NCBI GenBank assembly: GCA_947507965.1
Contig: CANNQU010000013.1
Span: forward strand, 1 to 56,808
Length of the DNA: 56,808 bases
Direction: 5' to 3'
From: Bacteroidota bacterium
GTDB taxonomy: Bacteria; Bacteroidota; Bacteroidia; UKL13-3
The notes beneath the pieces are model-generated. The model did no database searches and was not told the DNA's origin. It saw only the letters and a program-made list of their open reading frames with translations. Positions 22,763-37,676 of the stretch are shown here, one piece after another; position 1 is the first letter of the stretch; each line of letters begins with the position of its first letter. A program made the position numbers and the translations under genes.

Positions 22763-25700
22763 ATGACCAAATATTTATCCTCGAATCGAAATCATTTTTA
22801 TGCATTCCTCCTTACCATAGCCATGCTATTTGCAGGGTTGGGAAATGCAAATGCTCAGTGTCCTGCCGCTGGTTACACCGGATCAGGTGGGCCTTATTGT
22901 GTTTCCGGATCACCGGGATTTACCTTGCAGTCAAATGCATCAAACCCCAATGTAATTAAATGGCAATATTCAATTGACTTTGGGTCATCGTGGGTAGATA
23001 TTCCTGCTTCAGGTACTTCTACTTATGCTCCGGCTACATTTCCTGGAGGAGTTTATCAAATTATTTATTATCAGGCAATTATTGTGAATTGTTTGGGTTT
23101 TGGAGCTACTCCAACTCCAAGTAGTAGTCCAGCCGGACCTATCACGGTTGTTCCACTTCCTGTAGCTGGCTCATTTTCATTTACCTCAGGCACCAATGCT
23201 ACCGCCACTACTATCTGTAATGGAGGTGCTGCGACTTATTCGTTGACAGGTGCCAACAATTTGTTGGTTGCTCCACCGGATATCATCACCACAACATATA
23301 CAGTTACCACAAACAACGGTTCGGTTGGTGGTACTCAGGTATTTACTCGTACTTCAACGACTGCTGGTAATTTGGTTATTAATCCTACCAATGCTACCGC
23401 AAGTATTCAAAGCATCACCTATACCGTTACCGCTACCAATGGTACTTGTACGCCGGTTATTATAGGCACCGTCACCACCTGTGTTTATCCTACCATTATA
23501 GCAGGTAGTTTAAGTTCTACTTCGGTTTCATTATGCTCCGGTCAATCGGCTACCTTATCGTTACCCGGTTTTACTAATTTAGTGCCTACAGGAGCCTGCA
23601 CAGGAACAACCTATGCGCTTACAACCAATGTAGGTAGTTTATCTGGATCGTGTGGTACCATCACTCATGGTATTGGTGGTGCATTCACTACCGGTAGCGC
23701 ACCAGGTACGGTAACCATTACGCCGCTTAACTCAACCAATCAAATTCAAACCATACGATATACGGCTACGGTAACCAACGGCCCTTGTGCCAGTGTTCCT
23801 GTTTTTGTTGATGTGGCCATTTCACCTAATATCACTCCTGCAGGTATTGCTGTAAATACTCCAACACCTACTATATGTACCGGCGCAACAGCTACGGTAA
23901 ATATTACGAATCTATTATGTGCTACCGGATATAATTCCGCTTTCACTTCGATCACCGTTTCTGCCCCTACTTTTGGTGGATTAGGAGCGGCGAATATGGG
24001 AAGTGGTGTAGCGTCAGCCGTTACTAAAGCTGCCACATCGGCATTTTTCACAGTTAGTCCTACCATCAGCCAGTGTGCCATTGGTACTGCTGCATATAAT
24101 ATCTTCGCTCAAAACGCGCCTTGTGCGGCACCTGTTCTTATTGGTAGTATAAGCATAACCGTTTACCCTACCATTATTGCACCGGCTGCTAGTGTTACCG
24201 GTACCGGTACTATATGTACAGGAGCTAGTGTAACAAGCGTTACTACTGGAGCATGTGGAAATGGTTATACCCTTTCCGGTGGTTTTACTTCCTATACCAT
24301 CAGCGTATTTTCGGCAGGTGCCAATATTACAGCAAATGGCTTACCTGGAACACTTACAAACAATACCGGAAGCTTTACCGTTGCTCCAACCAATTTAACT
24401 TGTAATAATTCGGCCAATGCCATCACCTATCAAATCAATGCCATCAATCTTGCAACATGTGCTACAGCAGTAGCCGGTACCTTTACGGTAACGGTAACGC
24501 CTTCTCCTGTTGTCAACGGTCAGGTATTTAGTTTAACGGATGGAGCAATTACCAAGGTTTGTGATGGGGCAAGTGTTGTTATTACTCCTAATAATGTATG
24601 TGCAGGTGCTACTTATTTATGGGAACGTCAAATTGACGGAGGCGGTTATGTATTTTTCGGAAACGTCGCTGGACCACTAAGCAGTTTAGCCATGAATTCT
24701 GGCGCATGTATAGCAAGTACCTACGATTTCCGCTTAACAGTAACCTTTGGCACTTGTAGTCTAACGGCTAATTTAGCTCCAATTACAGTGTATCCGGTTA
24801 TTACAGCAACAACGGCGGTTGCGCCGGCAACTATTTGTTCGGGTGGTTCGGTTAACTTTTCAACCTCTTCTATCGGTTGTGAGCAAGCTGGAGCTACTTA
24901 CGAATTATTACAGAATGGCGTAATGGTTGTTACCAATTCAACCAGCAGAGCTTCATTCCTTGCGGCCATTACTAGCTATAGCCCTCCGGTAAACTATACT
25001 TGTGCCAACGTAATTTATAACTATAGTATAAGAGTTACGAATAATGCTGCAGGAGCAGGTTGTACTACCACTTCAGCAACGACAGCAGTAACGGTTAACC
25101 CGGCACCTTCTAATGGTGCTGCCATGGCCATGTCGGTTACTTCTACGCTTTCGATATGTAGTGGAAACACGGCAACAATAACCACCAACAGGTGTGCCGC
25201 TACAACAGCGGGAACTTGGTTGGTGTCTATTAATGGAGCAGGTTATATTAACATCGCAGCGGCTGTTCCGGCTATTATTATGACCGATAATGGTAATGGT
25301 ACGTATACCACCAATGGTTTAACCACCACTCTTTGTAATACCATCACTTATGGATTTAGAAATACGTTTACTTCGGCTATAGGTGCTTGTGCTGTAACCG
25401 TTAACACATCCAATGTGGTTACGGTTTTCCCAGCTCCAATAACTACCATTCCTACCATTACAGCTTCTTCTGGTACCTTGGTTGCTCCGTTTTTCAATAC
25501 TGATATTTGTACTGCAATAAATAGTGTTACGATTACTTCTCCTGTTCCTGTTTGCGGTAGTATTACCACTTGGGAATATTCTAATAATGGTGGAGCAAGT
25601 TGGTTTGCTATCGCATCATCGGCATCTAATACATTAACACTTACGAATGTACCTCAAAACAGAATTTACAGAGCTATTATATCGAATGGAGCGTTATGTG

Positions 25701-28700
25701 CAACCATCCCATCGTCGACGGTAACGGTTACGGTGAATGTGGTAGCAGGTGGAACGCCTACTACAGCCACTCCTGTAATTTGTACAGGTTCATCAGCAAC
25801 CATTACCTTAGCCGGACAATTAGGAAATATTATTGACTGGCAATCAGCTCCGACTTCTGCTTTTGGAGCCATCACTTCATTAGCAACCACAGCGAATCCG
25901 ATAACGGTTTCACCTATTGCTGATATCTGGTATAGAGCCCAAATGGCTTCAGGAGTTTGTACCACATTCTCTGCACCAATTCTTATCACCGTTAGTCCGG
26001 CTACTGTAGCAGGTACTATTACGGGTGCACCAGCTGTACCATCTACACAATGCTCACCAGCGAGTGGTGCTTTAACTTTAGGTGGTGGTACGGTAGGCAC
26101 CGTGCAACGTTGGGAATATTCAATTGATGCAGGAGCAACCTGGATTAATATAACCAATACCAGTACTACTCAAAACTACAGTGGTTTAACCCAAACAACG
26201 CAATATCGTGCCTTAGTAAAAAGTGGCGCTTGTGCTGATGCTTATTCCAATACCGTAGTTATAACGGTTAACCCAGCACCTATTGCCACGATAGGCGCGG
26301 CATTGAATACACTTTGTGTTGGTTCATCTACCACACTTTCAGGCACAGCTACTCCGGTTGTTGCAGGTGTTACCTTATATACGATTACGGCGAGTGCAGG
26401 TGTTTCACCAGTATATGCCAGTTCATTAATTGCCCCTACGTTCCCACTTTCGGTAACTCCGGGCGTAACGACTACTTATACGTATACGATTACTACTGCA
26501 CCATGTGCACCAGTTAGTGCTACGACTACCGTAACGGTAATTCCACAGCCAACCATATTAACATTTGCTCCGGTTACTTCGCCCGTGTGTGCTACGGCTA
26601 GTTCAGTTTTAACTTTCACTACCGGCGCAACGGTTGCAGGCGTGTCAAGTTATAAAATTGTTTCCAATTATCCTACTGCAGGATCAGAGGTTTATGCTGC
26701 CAATACAACAGCACCAAACAGCCCTCTAACAGTAGATCCTACGAATGTAAATCCAAACGGTACAACGACTTACACGTTCAGTATTACATCGGCACCTTGT
26801 GCAGCAACAACAGCCACGACAACCATCACTGTTAATCCGGTACCTACAGTAACGTTAACATCTGCCTTGTCGACAGTTTGCTTCACCTCTAATTCAACAA
26901 CTATTTCAGGAACAGCGAGCCCAGTATTAGCAGGTATAACTACTTACAAGGTAGGAACAACTTCAGGTGGTTTCGAACTTTATGGAACCACTGCAGCAGG
27001 GTTAATTGCTGCACCGACATTTCCATTAACGGTTACGCCGACTAGTACCACTACCTATTATTACACGGTAATGAATGGCGCTTGTGCACCAGTGATAACC
27101 AGTACAACAATTGTTGTTATACCACAGCCTACGATTCCTACTTTCAGTTCGCCTTCACCAATTTGTGCAACGTCAAGTGTGGCATTAACATTCTCTACTG
27201 GAGCTACCGTTGCCGGAGTATCGAGTTATAAAATCACGTCGAACTATCCGACAGCCGGATCTGAGGTTTATGCTGCTAATACTACAGCACCAACTAGTCC
27301 ATTGACTGTTGATGCCACGAATGTTAATCCGAATGGAACAACTCAATATACTTTCACGGTAACTTCAGCCCCTTGTGGTGCTACAACTTCTGCGTTAACT
27401 GTTACAGTTCATCCGGTTCCAACAGTTACACTTACTGGTGCAAATGCAGCAATATGTATTGGATCATCTACTACACTATCAGGAACATCAACACCGGTAG
27501 TTGCAGGTACAACGGCCTATAAAATTGGAACTACTTCGGGAGGATTTGATATCTACGGAACTACGGCAGCAGGGCTAGTAGCTCCTCCAACCTTCCCATT
27601 ATCGGTTACTCCAGCCGTAACGACTACGTATTACTATTCAGTTTCTAATGGAGCTTGTGCACCGGTAATTGCAAGTGTAACCGTTATTGTTATTCCACAA
27701 CCAACGGCTACCATATCATCTCCATCGCCAATATGTGCTACTTCAAGTACGGTATTAACACTATCGACCGGAAGTACCGTAGCAGGATTAACCAGCTATA
27801 AAATAGTTTCAAGTTATCCAACAGCAGGTTCGGAAGTGTATACGGCTAACACCACAGCGCCAACCAGCCCATTAACAGTGAGTTCAACGTATGTTAATCC
27901 GAACGGAAACACAACGTACACTTTCACACTAACTTCTGCACCATGTGCCGCCACGTCGGTATCAACCACCGTTACCGTACATCCGGTGCCTGCGGTTACG
28001 CTTACGGGTGCAAATGCAGCAATATGTATTGGTTCATCAACGACGCTTTCTGGAACGTCAACTCCAGTTGTGGCAGCTACTACCACGTACAAAATTGGAA
28101 CCACTTCGGGAGGATTTGATATTTACGGAACTACGGCATCGGGTTTAACTACCGCTCCTACTTTCCCGTTATCGGTTACTCCTGCGGTAACAACTACTTA
28201 TTACTATTCAGTTTCGAATGGTGCTTGTGCACCGGTAATTGCAAGTGTAACGGTTATCGTTATTCCGCAACCAACGGCTACCCTTACATCACCTTCGCCT
28301 ATATGTGCTACGAGTAGCACCGTATTAACATTCACCACCGGAAGCACGGTAGCAGGATTAACGAGCTATAAAATTGTTTCAAGTTATCCAGCAGCAGGTT
28401 CAGAAGTGTATGCGGCTAACACCACAGCACCAACCAGCCCATTAACAGTGGATGCAACAAATGTTAATCCAAACGGAAACACAACCTACACCTTTACGCT
28501 AACCTCTGCACCATGTGCAGCTACATCGGTATCAACAACGGTTACGGTACATCCAGTACCAGCGGTTACACTTACCGGTGCAAATGCCTCAATATGTATT
28601 GGTTCATCGACTACACTTTCTGGAACTTCAACTCCAGTTGTGGCAGCTACTACCACGTACAAAATTGGAACCACTTCGGGAGGATTTGATATTTACGGAA

Positions 28701-31700
28701 CTACGGCATCGGGTTTAACTACCGCTCCTACCTTCCCGTTATCGGTTACTCCAGCGGTAACAACTACCTATTACTATTCGGTTTCCAATGGTGCTTGTGC
28801 GCCGGTAATAGCAAGTGTAACCGTGGTTGTTATTCCTCAACCAACAGCTACCCTTACATCGCCTTCGCCAATATGTGCTACAACAAGTACCGTATTAACA
28901 TTTACCACAGGAAGCACGGTAGCAGGATTAACGAGCTATAAAATTGTTTCAAGTTATCCAACAGCAGGTTCGGAAGTATATGCGGCTAACACCACAGCAC
29001 CAACCAGCCCATTGACAGTGAGTTCAACGTATGTTAATCCGAACGGAAACACAACGTACACCTTTACGCTAACGTCTGCACCATGTGCCGCTACGTCGGT
29101 ATCAACTACGGTTACGGTACACCCAGTGCCAACGGTTGCTGTTACCTCTGCTAATTCGTCTATTTGTATTGGTTCATCAACTACCCTAACAGGTACTGCA
29201 ACTCCGGTTGTTGCAGGAGTTACATCATATATTATAACATCGAGTTTATTAGGAGCCATATATGCAAGTTCATTTATTGCACCTACATTCCCATTCTCAG
29301 TTACTCCAGCAGCTACTACAACCTATACGTATTCGGTAATGAATGGAGCTTGTGCTGCTGTAACGGCAACGGTTACGGTAGTTGTAATACCACAACCAAC
29401 AGCTACCTTGACATCGCCATCGCCAATATGTGCTACTCAAAGCACCGTATTGACCTTTTCTACAGGAAGTACGATAGCGGGATTAACGACCTATAAGATT
29501 ACTTCTGATTATCCATCAGCAGGTTCAGCTGTTTATGCAACAAATACTGCTGCTCCATCAAGCCCACTTACGGTTAATCCAACAAACATTAATCCAAATG
29601 GTGTAACAAATTATACGTACACGGTAACCTCGGCACCTTGCGGAGCTACAACGGCTTCGGTGGCTGTAACCGTTCATCCTGTTCCAACCGTTACGGTTAA
29701 TGCGGCCAACGCATCTATTTGTATTGGTTCATCGACTACCCTTTCGGGTACATCAACTCCAGTGGTTGCAGGTACTACTACCTACAAAATTGGAACTACT
29801 TCGGGAGGATTTGATATTTATGGAACAACGGTTGCAGGTTTAACAACGGCTCCTACGTTTCCATTCTCGGTTACTCCGGTAGCGACTACTACCTATTACT
29901 ACTCCGTTTCAAATGGTGCTTGTGCGCCGGTTGTTGCAAGTGTAACGGTGGTTGTTATTCCTCAGCCTACCGCAACTATTTCATCACCTACACCGATATG
30001 CGCTACCACGAGTACAGTATTAACATTCTCAACAGGAAGCACGGTGGCTGGTTTAACCACCTATAAGATTACGTCAAGTTATCCGTCAGCAGGGTCAGCA
30101 GTATATGCTACCAATACTACGGCACCAGTAAGTCCATTAACGGTTGATCCTACCAATATTAACCCGAATGGAACGACTACGTATACTTACACGGTTACTT
30201 CCGCACCTTGTGGAGCAACAACCGCTTCTACCAGTGTGGTTGTTCATCCAGTACCAACGGTTGGTCTTACTTCAGCCGATGCATCAATATGTATTGGTTC
30301 ATCAACAACCTTAACAGGAAGCTCAACACCAGTGGTTGCAGGTGTAACTACGTACACACTTACTTCAAATTTAACGGGTACTCTTTATGCTAGTTCATTT
30401 ATAGCACCTACGTTCCCTTACTCAGTTACTCCAGCTGCAACAACGACTTACACCTATTCGGTTCAGAATGGTGCTTGTACACCGGTTACTGCAACGGTTA
30501 CCGTAGTGGTTATTCCACAGCCAACGGCAAGCATATCATCGCCTTCGCCAATTTGTGCAACGACAACAACTGTATTAACGTTCTCAACAGGAAGTACAGT
30601 GGCTGGTTTAACAACATATAAAATCACTTCTGATTATCCATCAGCAGGGTCGGCAGTATATGCTACCAATACTACGGCACCAGCGAGTCCGTTAACAGTT
30701 AATCCTACGAATATTAACCCGAACGGAGTTACCAATTATACTTACACCGTAACATCTGCACCTTGTGCATCTACCACGGCTTCGGTTGCTGTAACTGTAC
30801 GCCCGGTACCTACCGCTCTAATAACACTTGCTCCAACAACGATTTGTTTGAACGATAATACTAAATTGTATTATACCATAGGCAATGTGGTTGGTGGAAT
30901 TACCACTTACGCGATTGGAACTACACCAGGTGCAACCAATATTATTTCCACCACTCCTATTGTTAGCAGTGGTACATTTAAAGATTCATTGGTTGTGACT
31001 CCTCCGGTAGGCATTACTACTTATTATTTAACAGTTACTACGGGCCCTTGTACTGCAGTATCTTCAAATGCTTCAGTAACAGTAAATCCTACTACCGTTG
31101 GTGGTTCGCTTTCTGCCGGTGTTATCATTTGTCCTTCTTCAGCAAATTCTAACACGTTCTCATTGAGTGGACAAGTTGGATCTGTGGTGAAATGGCAACA
31201 GTCAACAAATAACGGAACCACATGGTCTGATATTTCTAATACGTTAACTACCTACACGGCTACCAATATATCGGTATCTACCATCTATCGTGTTGTTGTT
31301 CAAAGTGGTGTTTGTCCTTCTCAAAATTCTGCTACTACTGGTATTTATGTAAATACTAATCCAATAGCTGACTTTACTAACACTACGGTATGTTTCAACA
31401 CTCCTCCTACCGTGTTCTCAAATAACACAACGCCGGGAACTACGATAACATCATTATTACCTGCACCGTTACAAGCATTATACAATATTGTTGGTGGAGC
31501 GGTAAGCACAACAACTACTTATGCATGGGTATTCGGCGATCCAACAAGCGCATCAAATACATCTACTTTGACAAGTCCTTCACACGCTTACACTTCTGCT
31601 GGAACGTATAGCGCAACGTTAGTGTCCACTACAAATACTTTAGTGGGTGCTTCAACGGTAGCTTCTTGTTCAAATTCGGTAACAAAATCGGTAACGGTTA

Positions 31701-34700
31701 ATCAGGTTACTACATCCGATTATACAACTTCACCAGTTTGTTTTGGAGGAGCTAGTCCGGTAAATATTGTAAACTACAATAGTGCTAATACCTATTCTAT
31801 CATATGGGGAGATGCTACTGCGGCTCAAACGCCTGTTGCGGCTACCACAACCCGTACCTATACTAATCCTGGACAATATTCGGTTCGTTTAAGATTAACC
31901 AATATTTACGGATGTAGCGATAGTATCACGAAGAGTGTTACTGCATGGGCTTTACCTGTAACTACAGGTGTGAACATTACCAATACAGCACCTTGCGTTG
32001 GAACTTCAATTACCTTTACTCCGGTTGGAGATGCTGGTGGAACAACATTTGTAATTAATCCATTAACAGGTGTTGCAACAGCAACGGTTGCTAATGCGGC
32101 TACTATTTCATCATACGCTTGGGAATTTGGCGATGGCAACACGGCAAATACTCGTATAGCTACTAATACTTATGCAGCGGCAGGTACTTATACTGTTAAA
32201 TTAACGATTACCAATAGTAATGGTTGTTCTCAGTTATTTATTTTCACTGCTACTCCGGTTACGGTTCAGCCGCTTCCTGTTGCAAGCTTCACCAATACTA
32301 CTGTATGCTTTGGTATCAGCACCACGTTTAATAGTACGTCAACGGTTGCATCAGGTAGTATTACCGGATGGGCTTGGAATTTTGGCGACCCATCAACTGC
32401 TGGTAATAATACTTCAACTAGTGCAAACCCTACGCATCTTTATAGTGCTCCAGGTACTTACACGGTAAATCACACGGTTACTACTGCCGCTGGTTGTACC
32501 CATACTACAACGGTTCAAGTTACTGTTTATCCTTTACCATTGGTAAGCTTTAATGCAAGTGCCCTTAGTGCATGTGCTGGAAGTACCATAACCTTTAACA
32601 GCACGAGTACCATTAGTTCTGGTAGTTTCACTTACGATTGGAGAGTTTCGGATAATGCCGGTAACTTTAATTTTGGTGGTGGAACGGTTTCAGCTAACGC
32701 TTCTTTGGTTCAAACATTTGCTACAGCAGGCACATATAACATACGTTTATACGCTCAATCGGCGAATGGTTGCAGAGATTCAGCTACAAGAAATGTAACG
32801 ATCAATGCGAACCCAACTGCGGTAATCGTTGTGAATCCTGCTTCAAATCAAATCTGTATCTATGAGGCATTCACCTTTACCAGCACCGGTTCATTGGCTG
32901 GTTCTGGAACGATAAGCTCTTATGCATGGACTTTTGGCGACGGAAGCACAAGCACTGCGGCTAATCCTGCGGCTAAATCGTATGCTAGTCCTGGTACTTA
33001 CACTGTTGGTCTTGTTATTACCAATAGTAATGGTTGTACGAATACCACTTCCAAAGTGGTTATTGTAAATCCTAAACCAGTGGTTAACTTTACTTCATCT
33101 AACGTTTGCTATGGTTACACCATGAACTTTACCGATGCTTCAACAACAGGGGTGGGTACTACCTATCTATGGAACTTTGGAGATCTTGCTTCTGGAGCTT
33201 TAAATACAGCAACAACTCAAAATACGTCTCATGACTTTACTACTGCCGGAACATTTACCGTTAAATTGATTGTAACGAATGGCTCCGGATGTAAAGATTC
33301 ACTTTCTAAATTGGTAACCGTTTGGCCTCGTCCAGTGGCTGACTTTAAAGCCGACACGGTATGTGAAGGTGGTGTAACATCGTTTACCAATCTTTCTACC
33401 ATTGCAAGTGGCTCAATGAGTTTCTTATGGAACTTCGGCGATGCTGCCAATACGACTTCAATTGCATCGGATCCTACATTCATGTACACACCAGGGGTTT
33501 ATTCAGTTAAATTAATTGTAACCTCAGGCTTTGGTTGTATCGACTCGGTTCGTAAATTGATTTTAGTAAAAGCTAATCCAAAACCAATATTTGTTGCTGC
33601 TAATGCTTGCTTACGTGATGCTATCACATTAGATACCACCGGATCAAACGGATCCGCTACGGTTACGCTACTTGTTGATTATGGCGATGGCTCGGCTCCT
33701 ACGGCTTCATTAACGCATACCTATACCATGAGTGGTGTATATACCGTTACACTAACTATGTTAGATAATGGTTGTACTTCAACAATATCAAAAGTGGTTA
33801 CCATTTTCGACTTACCTCTGCCTAGTTTCAGTGTGTCAGCGTATACCATTTGTGTAAATGCCGTGGATACCTTCAGTAATACATCAAGTATTGCAAGTGG
33901 CACTATCGTTTCTAATAAATGGGAAGTAATAAACGCTTCGAACACGGTTGTAGCTGCGGTTACATACAGTGCAAATCAAGAGTTCATTTATGCATTCAAC
34001 ACAGCCGGTATCTATCGTGTTAAATTAACAGCAACAAGCAATAACGGTTGCGTTGATACGGTGAGCAAAACGGTAACCGTAAATGCATTACCTACGGTAG
34101 CGATTAACTCAATAAACTTCTTAGTTCAAGCGTTCCACGCTTGTTTAGGAACGCCACATCAATTAACCAGCACTGGTTCTACTGCGGGAAGTGGAACAAT
34201 CGCTTCGTATTATTGGGATTTCGGAGATGGCAATACCTCTTCAAGTCAAAATCCTATCTATGCTTACAAAGCAGTAGGAACTTACACGGTTACCTTGGTA
34301 ATTACCAATAGTAATGGCTGTACGTTTAGCAAAACGCAAAGTGTGGTTGTTGACCCTATCCCAGATGCAACGATTAGACCAAGCAATTTCCCAATCCAAA
34401 CTTGTAATGGAACACCATTCACATTTACTGGACCTTCGGGAGCTGGATACAATTATGTATGGACTAGAAACGGTGTCGTGTTGGGAACTACCCAAGTATT
34501 AACCGTCAATCCTCCTACCTCTGGATGGTACTATTTAGCGGTAACTTCAAGCTTTGGTTGTACGAAAGTTGACTCTGCTTATTTAACGGTTAACCCTCTT
34601 CCAGTAATCATCTTGAGTGATAAGCACCCAATCATCAGCAAAGGCTGGAACAAGCAAATCAATGCAGCGGTTACAGGTCCAAACCCTACCTTCACGTATC

Positions 34701-35164
34701 TTTGGACTGCACAAGATGCAAGCATTAAAACAATCATCAGTAACAATGCTATTCCAAACCCTGTGTTAACACCTCCAAATGATGTTTTAAGTTACTACTT
34801 CGTGGTAACCGTAACCGATCAGAAAGGTTGTATTCAACGCGACACGGTTTATTTTACCATGTTGGAAGATTATAATTTGAAGCCGACCAATTTGATGACA
34901 CCTAACGGAGACGGTAAAAATGATATCTTCTGGATTGAAAACATTGATACCTATACCGATGCTGATGTTACTATCTTTAATCGTTGGGGTAACGTGGTTT
35001 ACCAAACTACCGATTATGCTAAACAGCCTTGGAATGGTACCTTCAATAATACCGGTGGTGAATTGCCAGATGGTACCTACTACTATATCATACGAACTGT
35101 ATATAAGGTTGATGGTAAAGATTTAATCTACAAAGGCCATATAACAATATTAAGAGGCAGATAA
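22763..35164 (+). CDS. Giant secreted Ig/PKD-repeat adhesin with type B T9SS sorting domain
   Basis: 4133 residues. A signal peptide (about 1-32, ending GNANAQ) is followed by Ig-like modules of about 90-110 residues (33-1173), each with paired cysteines. Residues 1174-2683 are eight near-identical tandem units of 185-192 residues. After two transitional modules come about eleven PKD-like domains (about 2868-3856) with motifs such as WNFGD, WEFGDGN and HTYT, then two Ig-like modules. The end (about 4034-4133; TPNGDGKNDIFWIENID, IFNRWGNVVY, LPDGTYYYII) is a CHU_C/type B sorting domain directing export by the type IX secretion system. Very rich in Thr/Ser/Ala. No catalytic domain was seen, so adhesion or a surface filament role is likely, as for SprB. 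The PorP-OmpA gene follows. Confidence 0.92.
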   Translation: MTKYLSSNRNHFYAFLLTIAMLFAGLGNANAQCPAAGYTGSGGPYCVSGSPGFTLQSNASNPNVIKWQYSIDFGSSWVDIPASGTSTYAPATFPGGVYQIIYYQAIIVNCLGFGATPTPSSSPAGPITVVPLPVAGSFSFTSGTNATATTICNGGAATYSLTGANNLLVAPPDIITTTYTVTTNNGSVGGTQVFTRTSTTAGNLVINPTNATASIQSITYTVTATNGTCTPVIIGTVTTCVYPTIIAGSLSSTSVSLCSGQSATLSLPGFTNLVPTGACTGTTYALTTNVGSLSGSCGTITHGIGGAFTTGSAPGTVTITPLNSTNQIQTIRYTATVTNGPCASVPVFVDVAISPNITPAGIAVNTPTPTICTGATATVNITNLLCATGYNSAFTSITVSAPTFGGLGAANMGSGVASAVTKAATSAFFTVSPTISQCAIGTAAYNIFAQNAPCAAPVLIGSISITVYPTIIAPAASVTGTGTICTGASVTSVTTGACGNGYTLSGGFTSYTISVFSAGANITANGLPGTLTNNTGSFTVAPTNLTCNNSANAITYQINAINLATCATAVAGTFTVTVTPSPVVNGQVFSLTDGAITKVCDGASVVITPNNVCAGATYLWERQIDGGGYVFFGNVAGPLSSLAMNSGACIASTYDFRLTVTFGTCSLTANLAPITVYPVITATTAVAPATICSGGSVNFSTSSIGCEQAGATYELLQNGVMVVTNSTSRASFLAAITSYSPPVNYTCANVIYNYSIRVTNNAAGAGCTTTSATTAVTVNPAPSNGAAMAMSVTSTLSICSGNTATITTNRCAATTAGTWLVSINGAGYINIAAAVPAIIMTDNGNGTYTTNGLTTTLCNTITYGFRNTFTSAIGACAVTVNTSNVVTVFPAPITTIPTITASSGTLVAPFFNTDICTAINSVTITSPVPVCGSITTWEYSNNGGASWFAIASSASNTLTLTNVPQNRIYRAIISNGALCATIPSSTVTVTVNVVAGGTPTTATPVICTGSSATITLAGQLGNIIDWQSAPTSAFGAITSLATTANPITVSPIADIWYRAQMASGVCTTFSAPILITVSPATVAGTITGAPAVPSTQCSPASGALTLGGGTVGTVQRWEYSIDAGATWINITNTSTTQNYSGLTQTTQYRALVKSGACADAYSNTVVITVNPAPIATIGAALNTLCVGSSTTLSGTATPVVAGVTLYTITASAGVSPVYASSLIAPTFPLSVTPGVTTTYTYTITTAPCAPVSATTTVTVIPQPTILTFAPVTSPVCATASSVLTFTTGATVAGVSSYKIVSNYPTAGSEVYAANTTAPNSPLTVDPTNVNPNGTTTYTFSITSAPCAATTATTTITVNPVPTVTLTSALSTVCFTSNSTTISGTASPVLAGITTYKVGTTSGGFELYGTTAAGLIAAPTFPLTVTPTSTTTYYYTVMNGACAPVITSTTIVVIPQPTIPTFSSPSPICATSSVALTFSTGATVAGVSSYKITSNYPTAGSEVYAANTTAPTSPLTVDATNVNPNGTTQYTFTVTSAPCGATTSALTVTVHPVPTVTLTGANAAICIGSSTTLSGTSTPVVAGTTAYKIGTTSGGFDIYGTTAAGLVAPPTFPLSVTPAVTTTYYYSVSNGACAPVIASVTVIVIPQPTATISSPSPICATSSTVLTLSTGSTVAGLTSYKIVSSYPTAGSEVYTANTTAPTSPLTVSSTYVNPNGNTTYTFTLTSAPCAATSVSTTVTVHPVPAVTLTGANAAICIGSSTTLSGTSTPVVAATTTYKIGTTSGGFDIYGTTASGLTTAPTFPLSVTPAVTTTYYYSVSNGACAPVIASVTVIVIPQPTATLTSPSPICATSSTVLTFTTGSTVAGLTSYKIVSSYPAAGSEVYAANTTAPTSPLTVDATNVNPNGNTTYTFTLTSAPCAATSVSTTVTVHPVPAVTLTGANASICIGSSTTLSGTSTPVVAATTTYKIGTTSGGFDIYGTTASGLTTAPTFPLSVTPAVTTTYYYSVSNGACAPVIASVTVVVIPQPTATLTSPSPICATTSTVLTFTTGSTVAGLTSYKIVSSYPTAGSEVYAANTTAPTSPLTVSSTYVNPNGNTTYTFTLTSAPCAATSVSTTVTVHPVPTVAVTSANSSICIGSSTTLTGTATPVVAGVTSYIITSSLLGAIYASSFIAPTFPFSVTPAATTTYTYSVMNGACAAVTATVTVVVIPQPTATLTSPSPICATQSTVLTFSTGSTIAGLTTYKITSDYPSAGSAVYATNTAAPSSPLTVNPTNINPNGVTNYTYTVTSAPCGATTASVAVTVHPVPTVTVNAANASICIGSSTTLSGTSTPVVAGTTTYKIGTTSGGFDIYGTTVAGLTTAPTFPFSVTPVATTTYYYSVSNGACAPVVASVTVVVIPQPTATISSPTPICATTSTVLTFSTGSTVAGLTTYKITSSYPSAGSAVYATNTTAPVSPLTVDPTNINPNGTTTYTYTVTSAPCGATTASTSVVVHPVPTVGLTSADASICIGSSTTLTGSSTPVVAGVTTYTLTSNLTGTLYASSFIAPTFPYSVTPAATTTYTYSVQNGACTPVTATVTVVVIPQPTASISSPSPICATTTTVLTFSTGSTVAGLTTYKITSDYPSAGSAVYATNTTAPASPLTVNPTNINPNGVTNYTYTVTSAPCASTTASVAVTVRPVPTALITLAPTTICLNDNTKLYYTIGNVVGGITTYAIGTTPGATNIISTTPIVSSGTFKDSLVVTPPVGITTYYLTVTTGPCTAVSSNASVTVNPTTVGGSLSAGVIICPSSANSNTFSLSGQVGSVVKWQQSTNNGTTWSDISNTLTTYTATNISVSTIYRVVVQSGVCPSQNSATTGIYVNTNPIADFTNTTVCFNTPPTVFSNNTTPGTTITSLLPAPLQALYNIVGGAVSTTTTYAWVFGDPTSASNTSTLTSPSHAYTSAGTYSATLVSTTNTLVGASTVASCSNSVTKSVTVNQVTTSDYTTSPVCFGGASPVNIVNYNSANTYSIIWGDATAAQTPVAATTTRTYTNPGQYSVRLRLTNIYGCSDSITKSVTAWALPVTTGVNITNTAPCVGTSITFTPVGDAGGTTFVINPLTGVATATVANAATISSYAWEFGDGNTANTRIATNTYAAAGTYTVKLTITNSNGCSQLFIFTATPVTVQPLPVASFTNTTVCFGISTTFNSTSTVASGSITGWAWNFGDPSTAGNNTSTSANPTHLYSAPGTYTVNHTVTTAAGCTHTTTVQVTVYPLPLVSFNASALSACAGSTITFNSTSTISSGSFTYDWRVSDNAGNFNFGGGTVSANASLVQTFATAGTYNIRLYAQSANGCRDSATRNVTINANPTAVIVVNPASNQICIYEAFTFTSTGSLAGSGTISSYAWTFGDGSTSTAANPAAKSYASPGTYTVGLVITNSNGCTNTTSKVVIVNPKPVVNFTSSNVCYGYTMNFTDASTTGVGTTYLWNFGDLASGALNTATTQNTSHDFTTAGTFTVKLIVTNGSGCKDSLSKLVTVWPRPVADFKADTVCEGGVTSFTNLSTIASGSMSFLWNFGDAANTTSIASDPTFMYTPGVYSVKLIVTSGFGCIDSVRKLILVKANPKPIFVAANACLRDAITLDTTGSNGSATVTLLVDYGDGSAPTASLTHTYTMSGVYTVTLTMLDNGCTSTISKVVTIFDLPLPSFSVSAYTICVNAVDTFSNTSSIASGTIVSNKWEVINASNTVVAAVTYSANQEFIYAFNTAGIYRVKLTATSNNGCVDTVSKTVTVNALPTVAINSINFLVQAFHACLGTPHQLTSTGSTAGSGTIASYYWDFGDGNTSSSQNPIYAYKAVGTYTVTLVITNSNGCTFSKTQSVVVDPIPDATIRPSNFPIQTCNGTPFTFTGPSGAGYNYVWTRNGVVLGTTQVLTVNPPTSGWYYLAVTSSFGCTKVDSAYLTVNPLPVIILSDKHPIISKGWNKQINAAVTGPNPTFTYLWTAQDASIKTIISNNAIPNPVLTPPNDVLSYYFVVTVTDQKGCIQRDTVYFTMLEDYNLKPTNLMTPNGDGKNDIFWIENIDTYTDADVTIFNRWGNVVYQTTDYAKQPWNGTFNNTGGELPDGTYYYIIRTVYKVDGKDLIYKGHITILRGR
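26282..30811 (+). repeat. Eight tandem in-frame repeats of 555-576 bp
   Basis: Unit starts are at about 26282, 26846, 27422, 27992, 28562, 29132, 29687 and 30257. The unit length is 570 bp for most, 564 and 576 for the first two, and 555 for the sixth and eighth, which carry a shorter first half (YASSFIAPTFP type). Units three to six are closest; 28057-28161 and 28627-28731 are identical over 105 bases. Each unit encodes two different Ig-like halves, one starting near CIGSSTTLSGT and one near PSPICATSS. Confidence 0.92.
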
Positions 35165-35178
35165 TAAATAAACCCTTT

Positions 35179-35206
35179 CACTTTGGTACATTTTAGTACC
35201 AAAGTG
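35179..35206 (+). terminator. Hairpin between adhesin and PorP-OmpA genes
   Basis: CACTTTGGTAC and GTACCAAAGTG form a perfect 11-bp stem around a 6-base loop, extended outside by CCCT/AGGGG pairing. There is no T-run after it, so it may act as a partial terminator, attenuator or RNA-stability element rather than a full stop. It lies 14 bases after the adhesin stop. Confidence 0.6.
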
Positions 35207-35268
35207 TAGGGGATAACAAACAAATAATCAAACCATAAAATCAAGTTCGTAAAAAAAGTCATAATAAT

Positions 35269-36801
35269 ATGAAAAAGTTAATATTTACACTTGCTGCATT
35301 ACTAAGTTTAATGAGTACTAGTTATTCTCAACAAATACAGTTGTCGAGTACCTATAATTACAATAAATTTATTATTAATCCAGCGTTAACCGGAATCTAT
35401 AAGCGACCACAGCTTTTTCTGGTACACAGAAACCAATATACAGCAATGCCAGGTAACCCGGTTACTAGCGCACTTACGGTAGAATCGGCATTGAAAAACG
35501 ATAAAATCGGGTTGGGTGGTATGCTCTATAGCGATGCATTAGGAATAACAAATACCATCGGAGCTAAGTTTTCGTATGCCTATAAATTGAAGCTGAATAC
35601 GGATGCATGTTTAGGCTTAGGTTTAGGCGTTGGGGTAAATCGTTTAGGAATTAACTTTAGTTCTGCCGAAGTAATAGATCAAGGTGACTTGGCCATCTAT
35701 AACTTTAATGCAATGAATAAGGTAACTTTTGATGCTGTTGGTGGTGCTAATTTCTCTTGGCGCAAATTAAATGTAGGGTTCGCAATTCCTAATTTGATCA
35801 ACACCAAAGCGAAATTCCACAAAAACGATTCCTTGATTTCCAGTAGTTCTTATTTCACTTACGCACGTAATATTGCGGCTAATTTGAGTTACGATTTTAC
35901 ATTGACAAATGATGGAAGGCATTCATTGTCTCCTTCCGTTTTGTTTAAACGTGACCTTGTAAAAAAGACTACAAAACCTGTGACAGGAAACAAAGACAAC
36001 AGTCTTCCTTGGCAGTTGGATGTTAATGTAATGTATGATTACATGAAGAAATATTGGGTTGGTGCTGCTTATCGTACCGATTACGGTGTGATTGCTCAAG
36101 TAGGAGCTAAGCTATTTGATCAACTTACCGTTGGTTACGCGTATGATTTTCATACGAATAAGGCTTGGAGTGGTTCTACTTTGGTGGGTCAAACGCATGA
36201 AATTATTTTAGGATATGAGTTCGGTAAGAAAATTGCAGATCTTACAAAGCAGGTTAACAAATTAGATACTACAGTTCAAGAAGTAGTTAAGAAAACGGAC
36301 GAATTGGATAGTACCCTTAGAGATACGAAGAAGAAGATGGAGAAGATGAACAACGAATTACGTAAACGTGATGATGATAATTTCCAGAACTTGAAAAAAG
36401 AATTGGATAAAACCAATGCCGATCTTGAAGAATTACGTAAGATGGTTAACAAAAATGGTAGCACCTACAATTTAAATCGTATTTATTTCAAAACAGATAA
36501 AAGCGATTTGCTACCAGGTTCTATGGATGAGTTGGATGAATTACTTAGTGTGTTAAACAAATATCCGAATATGAGTATTAAAATAATGGGACATACAGAC
36601 AGTCGTAACAGTGAATCATACAATCAAAAATTGTCAGAGAAAAGAGCTAAAGCAGTGTATGATTATTTGGTTGCGAAAGGCATTAGTGCCGACCGTTTAG
36701 AGTATGCCGGTTACGGTAAGAAATATCCTATCGCTGATAACACCAATGAAACAGGTATGCAATTGAATCGTCGTGTTCAAGTTAAAGTTACCAAGTTTTA
36801 A
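35269..36801 (+). CDS. PorP/SprF-family T9SS protein fused to coiled coil and OmpA domain
   Basis: 510 residues. A signal peptide (about 1-21, ending TSYSQ) precedes a PorP/SprF-type outer-membrane beta-barrel domain (about 22-320) with the family start NKFIINPALTGIYKRPQLFL and repeated amphipathic strands. A heptad-rich coiled coil (about 325-400; TKQVNKLDTTVQEVVKKTDE) leads to an OmpA domain (about 403-510). The peptidoglycan-binding residues are Asp444 in GHTDSR and Arg459 in SEKRAKAV. SprF helps export the giant adhesin SprB; PorP-type proteins work with the T9SS. Position right after a type B cargo argues for the same role here, with a built-in anchor to the cell wall. A strong terminator follows. 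Confidence 0.9.
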   Translation: MKKLIFTLAALLSLMSTSYSQQIQLSSTYNYNKFIINPALTGIYKRPQLFLVHRNQYTAMPGNPVTSALTVESALKNDKIGLGGMLYSDALGITNTIGAKFSYAYKLKLNTDACLGLGLGVGVNRLGINFSSAEVIDQGDLAIYNFNAMNKVTFDAVGGANFSWRKLNVGFAIPNLINTKAKFHKNDSLISSSSYFTYARNIAANLSYDFTLTNDGRHSLSPSVLFKRDLVKKTTKPVTGNKDNSLPWQLDVNVMYDYMKKYWVGAAYRTDYGVIAQVGAKLFDQLTVGYAYDFHTNKAWSGSTLVGQTHEIILGYEFGKKIADLTKQVNKLDTTVQEVVKKTDELDSTLRDTKKKMEKMNNELRKRDDDNFQNLKKELDKTNADLEELRKMVNKNGSTYNLNRIYFKTDKSDLLPGSMDELDELLSVLNKYPNMSIKIMGHTDSRNSESYNQKLSEKRAKAVYDYLVAKGISADRLEYAGYGKKYPIADNTNETGMQLNRRVQVKVTKF

Positions 36802-36869: not shown

Positions 36870-37676
36870 ATGTATCGCAAACAGATTATTAACGACCTAA
36901 AGCAAAACCTACAAAAAATTTCGCAGGTTATTATTCTAATCGAACAATATGACCACTCGGAGGCTGGGGTAGAATTAGATTTAATGCAAAAAAACGTGGC
37001 TCTTCTTTATGAGAATTATGTAAAACTTAAACTGAGTTATGAAAAAAGAGTAATCGACGAAACAAGGGCACATTCTAGTCCTTCTGTTAGCGTGCCTCCT
37101 TTAGCGGTTATTCCTGCTGTGGAATTGGTGTTGCCTAACGTTGAAGAAGTGATTGCCCCGCAGGCTCAACCTAGTCTTGGATTTAATTTTAACTTAGGCG
37201 ACGACGAAGGCAAAATAAATCAGAGGATGGAGAGCAAGGATGAAAAAAACACCCCCGTTTCTGGTGATTTTAGTTTGAATCAGGCCATTGATGAAGCTTT
37301 GAATATTGCATTAAAGCAAACGACTCACACGAAAGTAGAATCGCCAAAAGTGTTGGAGAATGAAATGGACAAATCGATTAACGACCATTTTTCGTCGTTG
37401 AAAACAGATATTAACTTAGCAGATAAACATTTGAGAATTGCCATCACGGATTTGTCAAAAGAAATATCCTTAAATAAAAAATTTGCTTTTGTGAATGAAT
37501 TATTTAATGGAAATATGGATCATTATAGTACCGCCATCCAGCAACTTAATACCATTGGAAGTGCTGATTATGCACGGAAATATATCAATGAGTTAAAGGT
37601 GAATTTGAAATGGAATCGGGAGAATCCGGCAGTGGCCGAGTTTGTTGATATGGTAGAGCGCAGATGGGAACGATAG
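36870..37676 (+). CDS. Cytoplasmic coiled-coil protein of unknown function
   Basis: 268 residues with no signal peptide or membrane helix. An N-terminal helical region (about 1-62) is followed by a Pro/Val-rich low-complexity linker (about 70-105), and a C-terminal helical domain (about 170-265) contains ISLNKKFAFVNELFNGNMDH and YARKYINELKVNLKWNRENP. The C-terminal pattern recurs in uncharacterised Bacteroidota proteins, to my knowledge without an assigned role. It is one base before bshB1, so the two are translated together. The next in-frame Met is at residue 39, which supports the ATG at 36870. Confidence 0.7.
   Translation: MYRKQIINDLKQNLQKISQVIILIEQYDHSEAGVELDLMQKNVALLYENYVKLKLSYEKRVIDETRAHSSPSVSVPPLAVIPAVELVLPNVEEVIAPQAQPSLGFNFNLGDDEGKINQRMESKDEKNTPVSGDFSLNQAIDEALNIALKQTTHTKVESPKVLENEMDKSINDHFSSLKTDINLADKHLRIAITDLSKEISLNKKFAFVNELFNGNMDHYSTAIQQLNTIGSADYARKYINELKVNLKWNRENPAVAEFVDMVERRWER

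Follow-up and report, generated by a model that had tools for sequence, protein, structure and literature searches.

A giant type B cargo and a PorP/SprF carrier with a predicted peptidoglycan-binding tail: a candidate static, wall-anchored adhesin pair in a Bacteroidota genome

Some type B T9SS cargos are mobile at the cell surface and others stationary, which raises the question of how each kind is anchored. Such cargos are bound by cognate PorP/SprF carriers, which keep them anchored (PMC9143113, PMC12618676). SprF is tied to the moving track via a Cys-X-Cys motif in its periplasmic C-tail, which forms a disulfide with GldK, and with SprF devoid of this motif SprB is exported but nearly stationary (PMC12635249). 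In P. gingivalis, PorE, PorP and PG1035 form a complex in which PorP binds PorE (PMC9143113), and the OmpA domain of PorE binds peptidoglycan (PMC9143113, PMC7192894). The static cargo-PorP-PorE-wall model so far rests on P. gingivalis pull-downs and on speculation for F. johnsoniae. The locus studied here lies in a window of 56,808 nt, the whole stretch of DNA that was analysed, and consists of two consecutive plus-strand genes, an adhesin gene followed by a gene for a PorP-OmpA carrier (Table 1). It raises the question of whether the adhesin is held or moved by its partner. With a probability of about 0.78, we read the locus as a dedicated type B T9SS cargo and a carrier whose periplasmic tail would grip peptidoglycan, yielding a static wall-anchored adhesin; this reading draws on sequence, structure models and analogy with characterized pairs.

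Table 1. Features of the adhesin/carrier locus and their positions in the window.
Feature	Position	Strand	Basis or remarks
Adhesin gene	22763..35164	+	4,133 aa; ORF call, profile matches, orthologues in 3 relatives
Type B C-terminal sorting domain of adhesin	34883..35161	+	CHU_C E 1.5e-24
Intercistronic RNA hairpin	35173..35212	+	8 nt past adhesin stop codon; no U-tract
PorP-OmpA carrier gene	35269..36801	+	510 aa; ORF call, PorP_SprF and OmpA profile matches
PorP/SprF outer-membrane barrel, FadL/PorV-like fold	35326..36222	+	PF11751/TIGR03519, AlphaFold2, structural matches
Long single helix aa 322-395, proposed periplasmic spacer	36232..36453	+	AlphaFold2 model
OmpA peptidoglycan-binding domain with Asp444, Asn452, Arg459 triad (binding predicted)	36466..36798	+	PF00691, structural matches

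The first-pass annotation had described a 4133-residue secreted Ig/PKD protein with a type B sorting domain. The open reading frame and the profile matches bear out its length, its PKD domains (PF18911 (PKD_4), E 1e-119, and also PF00801) and its type B T9SS sorting domain, which matches CHU_C/TIGR04131 over aa 4041-4131; the N-terminal signal peptide was judged by eye. The "Ig" part proved instead to be a divergent, degenerate repeat with a period of ~190 aa in the protein, and a tandem-repeat finder returned no repeats in the adhesin DNA, where the copies are too diverged. The C-terminal sorting domain (CTD) shares 75-80% identity with its counterparts in the three orthologous adhesins, whereas none of 20 other type B CTDs compared from the host genome exceeds 42% identity to it. 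Crosstalk between carriers is known between CTDs of high identity (PMC12618676). Because the other CTDs of the host fall short of such identity, the adhesin and the PorP-OmpA carrier look like a dedicated cognate pair at the sequence level, and sharing of this carrier with the 20 other cargos compared is unsupported. Above the cut-off, the host genome has ~25 matches to type B CTDs but only three PorP/SprF barrels, which leaves most of these cargos as orphans with no linked carrier.

The carrier starts 105 bp after the end of the adhesin gene on the same strand, an arrangement that is the same in three relatives. That one gene combines a PorP/SprF barrel, a long helix and an OmpA domain, as had been proposed, is confirmed by profiles and by an AlphaFold2 model. 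The barrel (aa 1-318) matches PorP_SprF in PF11751/TIGR03519 (E 3e-57) with 175 bits against a cut-off of 22.3 for PF11751 and 194 against 90.6 for TIGR03519, and the OmpA domain (aa 406-501) matches PF00691 (E 8e-23, 81 bits against a cut-off of 27.2). The model, built from 41 related sequences, has a mean pLDDT of 81 and a pTM of 0.57. It shows a signal helix, a barrel of ~14 strands, a 74-residue helix and a compact C-terminal domain; the helix would span ~11 nm if straight, and pLDDT drops to 54-70 at its end. In Foldseek searches, the barrel matches FadL and chain F of the T9SS translocon structure 8gl6 (8gl6_F), which we take to be the PorV shuttle, and the C-terminal domain matches the Capnocytophaga OmpA 5wtp (44% identity), PorE 6top and Pal/OmpA domains. 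The carrier is thus modelled as an outer-membrane barrel of the FadL/PorV type with a signal peptide. Its sole cysteine, C114, lies in the barrel and is not conserved; the C-tail contains neither a Cys-X-Cys motif nor any other cysteine. Profiles and model reveal none of the TPR, beta-propeller and CRD domains of PorE in the carrier, which has the barrel and helix instead.

In the crystal structure of PorE, Asp576, Asn584 and Arg591 bind the stem peptide (PMC7192894). Asp444, Asn452 and Arg459 of the carrier have the same spacing (+8/+15), and all three are invariant in the carrier and its three orthologues. From this sequence match and the modelled fold, we infer that the OmpA domain of the carrier binds the peptidoglycan stem peptide. 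The Asp of the triad is absent in 5 of the 24 OmpA-type tails of our survey, so standard peptidoglycan binding need not apply to all such tails.

The adhesin/carrier pair, flanked by the same genes each time, is present in four of five genomes of the genus; the assembly of the fifth is fragmented and has a completeness of 89%. In the three other genomes the carrier is open, 71-83% identical and next to the same neighbours. A frame or assembly artefact, or a chance fusion, is ruled out by the open fused gene conserved in four genomes. The three other pair-bearing genomes are uncultured Bacteroidetes MAGs, with a lake origin as judged from bin names; the host of the window is likewise regarded as an uncultured lake bacterium. 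A genome of the same genus (G020) also carries a second, distantly related PorP-OmpA carrier (L034:2396-7252, minus strand), which adjoins a 1,050-aa Kelch/PKD type B cargo and has an OmpA domain that lost the usual peptidoglycan-binding residues.

Between adhesin and carrier, the predicted RNA hairpin has a folding energy of -24.6 kcal/mol (z -6.4) in the window and recurs in all four genus loci (window, L031, L032 and L033; -23 to -26 kcal/mol, z -5.4 to -6.7). The stem sequences differ strongly among these loci and the structure is kept; possible roles are protection or processing of the long adhesin transcript, or control of the adhesin-to-carrier ratio. Just 5' of the carrier start (window about 35238-35268), a ~20-nt leader, ATCAAGTTCGTAAAAAA, is near-identical in the four genus genomes, and the intergenic DNA outside it differs among them. 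Directly 3' of the carrier, a 268-aa ORF (36870-37676) is kept in the four genomes and is followed by bshB1; it has no Pfam or NCBIfam match and probably belongs to the bacillithiol side rather than to the adhesin pair.

To place the carrier among its relatives, a profile from four fused proteins was run over 395 genomes of the class. The survey set comprised 60 long-tailed loci plus tail-less controls; a systematic sample added 40 loci from a PF11751 search, not ranked by likeness to the fused form. Neighbour genes were analysed with profiles built for the survey, and carriers with tails of ≥90 aa were called extended. Long C-terminal tails occur on 75 PorP/SprF barrels (25 OmpA, 44 SPOR, one both). 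The 72 extended carriers comprise 23 with OmpA, 44 with SPOR, one with both (L098) and four with other tails, three of which contain a carboxypeptidase-regulatory-like domain. By Pfam at E 0.01, OmpA is found in 23/69 and SPOR in 32/69 extended tails, and several SPOR matches exceed the Pfam gathering score. The one SPOR-tailed carrier that was modelled is likewise built from a barrel, then a helix and a small domain at the C-terminus. Two unrelated peptidoglycan-binding folds, OmpA and SPOR, thus occur at the same tail position. Most barrels lack an extended tail, which was present on 3 of 42 in the systematic sample, and none of the extended carriers surveyed contains a Cys-X-Cys motif. An architecture unique to the window locus is ruled out by this survey.

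The gene order of the locus was sought across the class, as the first-pass annotation had suggested. A type B cargo gene lies directly upstream on the same strand of 66/72 extended carriers and elsewhere in the operon of 4/72, while 2/72 sit at contig ends. All 70 evaluable extended carriers are therefore cargo-linked, together with 3/3 in fresh genomes, and no PorP-OmpA gene apart from a type B cargo was encountered among them, so the refuting observation named in the first-pass annotation did not occur. Cargo linkage is a general rule for the PorP/SprF family (PMC12618676) and so does not single out the fused form. Two further arrangements were observed. L098:4811-8563 (minus strand) encodes a 1,250-aa carrier with a PorP barrel, OmpA, long coiled-coil stretches and a C-terminal SPOR, that is, two wall-binding modules in one protein, 3' of a type B cargo. 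In L080:4363-7557 (minus strand), L097:4919-7946 and L114:4945-8429, tandem PorP carriers share one operon, one with a SPOR tail and the next with a carboxypeptidase-regulatory-like tail, which suggests a heteromeric carrier pair.

The relation of tails to PorE-like neighbours was read against a tree of 172 barrels built with FastTree, many of whose nodes are modestly supported. In this tree, 24/25 PorE-linked carriers fall in one clade, and the deepest split, as drawn, separates all extended carriers from that clade. A separate OmpA/PorE-like gene is found downstream of 0/72 extended and 8/25 tail-less cargo-linked carriers (systematic sample; Fisher p 7e-6), an association that is largely clade-level given the single clade, so that the p-value overstates independence; with PorE-linked carriers forming nearly one clade, we downgraded this complementarity as an independent statistical test. 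The same limit applies to a C-terminal PR[YF][FLY] ending, which was first spotted in the same data (11/12 tail-less carriers with a PorE-like neighbour versus 3/53 others) and then checked on 13 other genomes (motif and PorE 11, motif only 1, PorE only 2, neither 21; p 2e-6). Tail-less carriers with a PorE-like OmpA gene downstream, nearly all of which have PR[YF]F as their last residues, are seen at L181-L185, L191, L193, L200, L204 and 11 loci among L222-L248. PR[YF]F is possibly a PorE docking motif, though it is found mostly in one clade. OmpA and SPOR tails are intermixed among the extended carriers, and the tree implies a minimum of 11 switches between tail-less, OmpA and SPOR states. 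The window barrel lies outside the PorE-linked clade, in a group (support 92, not starred) with carriers from another family that have OmpA tails. Some tail-less cargo carriers have no PorE either, which shows that anchoring to the wall is not required in every case.

The pair had further been proposed as a self-contained module with an exporter tied to the cell wall. Self-contained it is not: SprA, a PorU-like C25 peptidase, a GldJ-like lipoprotein (score just under the NCBIfam cut-off), GldK and GldL are encoded on other contigs of the host genome. The second host PorP barrel adjoins the GldJ-like gene and has two cysteines in its tail; the third adjoins gldK/gldL and has one. The cognate pair with a wall-tied carrier is supported. 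The partner belongs with the carriers, or shuttles, and is not an exporter. In the proposed mechanism, the adhesin would be exported via the ordinary T9SS translocon of the genome and handed to the PorP/SprF barrel, where, by analogy with published pairs, it would stay bound at the surface by its CTD. The periplasmic end of the barrel would continue as the long helix reaching the cell wall, and the OmpA domain at the helix end would grip the peptidoglycan stem peptide. The carrier would then be one member of a widespread group with an exchangeable wall-binding C-tail module, OmpA or SPOR.

The first-pass annotation had left it undecided whether the carrier transmits force to the adhesin or holds it. 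If it transmitted force, the wall-bound carrier would play the part that SprF plays for SprB and connect the adhesin to a motor or moving track. A track may exist, as the host has GldK, GldL and the GldJ-like lipoprotein, and MotB-type motor proteins, which score weakly here, likewise contain OmpA domains. However, SprF coupling needs the tail Cys-X-Cys (PMC12635249), which is absent here and from all extended carriers surveyed, and a peptidoglycan grip opposes lateral movement; force transmission is therefore highly improbable. Since SprF moves SprB via its tail cysteine pair and the carrier tail has a peptidoglycan-binding domain and no cysteine, holding is favoured, and by this analogy the adhesin is probably held in place rather than moved for gliding.

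Alternatively, the OmpA or SPOR tail could be a general outer-membrane-to-wall tether or a device that localises the barrel, with the adhesin carried passively. This would fit the usual roles of both domains, since OmpA-family proteins generally tether the outer membrane and SPOR domains as a rule bring proteins to septal peptidoglycan. The cargo linkage of every evaluable extended carrier and the specificity of the adhesin CTD for this carrier lineage make such a device rather unlikely. A recent fusion of neighbouring porP and porE-like genes in the genus, without special meaning, would draw on the common order of PorP followed by a PorE-like gene, also seen in the window's family (L043, L045). 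Yet the window barrel groups with other extended carriers, away from the PorE-linked ones, and the TPR and propeller domains of PorE are missing from it, so we give a local fusion hardly any credence.

Built-in peptidoglycan-binding domains of two unrelated folds at the same position give independent comparative support to the static model, and the fused carriers make this model testable with one gene. More tentatively, and at slightly below even odds, the C-tail may be an exchangeable attachment code that determines how the adhesin outside behaves, in which cysteines lead to the gliding track, PR[YF]F to PorE-like anchors, and built-in OmpA or SPOR to immobile wall anchoring. If so, a SPOR tail might even direct its adhesin to the site of division.

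A type B cargo and PorP/SprF carrier with OmpA-mediated wall anchoring is already known. In the open-access literature searched, we found no description of PorP-OmpA or PorP-SPOR carriers, nor of the one-chain form, its recurrence or the SPOR alternative, which is no proof of novelty. Like classical OmpA, the window carrier combines an outer-membrane barrel with a C-terminal peptidoglycan-binding domain, whereas its barrel belongs to the larger, FadL/PorV-like PorP/SprF family and is linked to a T9SS cargo. As in F. johnsoniae SprB/SprF, a very large repetitive type B adhesin is followed directly downstream by a PorP/SprF carrier (PMC12635249, PMC12618676). In contrast, SprF has a short C-tail with Cys-X-Cys, forms the GldK disulfide and moves, while the window carrier has a cysteine-free tail with a predicted wall-binding domain. 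Similar to the locus, F. johnsoniae Fjoh_3952/3951/3950 have been proposed to form a static complex of a type B cargo, an SprF-like carrier and a PorE-like anchor (PMC12618676); there, three genes are involved and the anchor is a separate protein, whereas the window has two genes. The P. gingivalis PG1035-PorP-PorE complex likewise joins a PorP barrel for a type B cargo to a peptidoglycan-binding OmpA domain with the same D/N/R residues (PMC9143113, PMC7192894). In P. gingivalis, the peptidoglycan link is the separate lipoprotein PorE with its TPR, propeller and CRD domains, whereas in the window a helix and an OmpA domain lie in the carrier's own C-tail, and one chain would do what PorP plus PorE are proposed to do.
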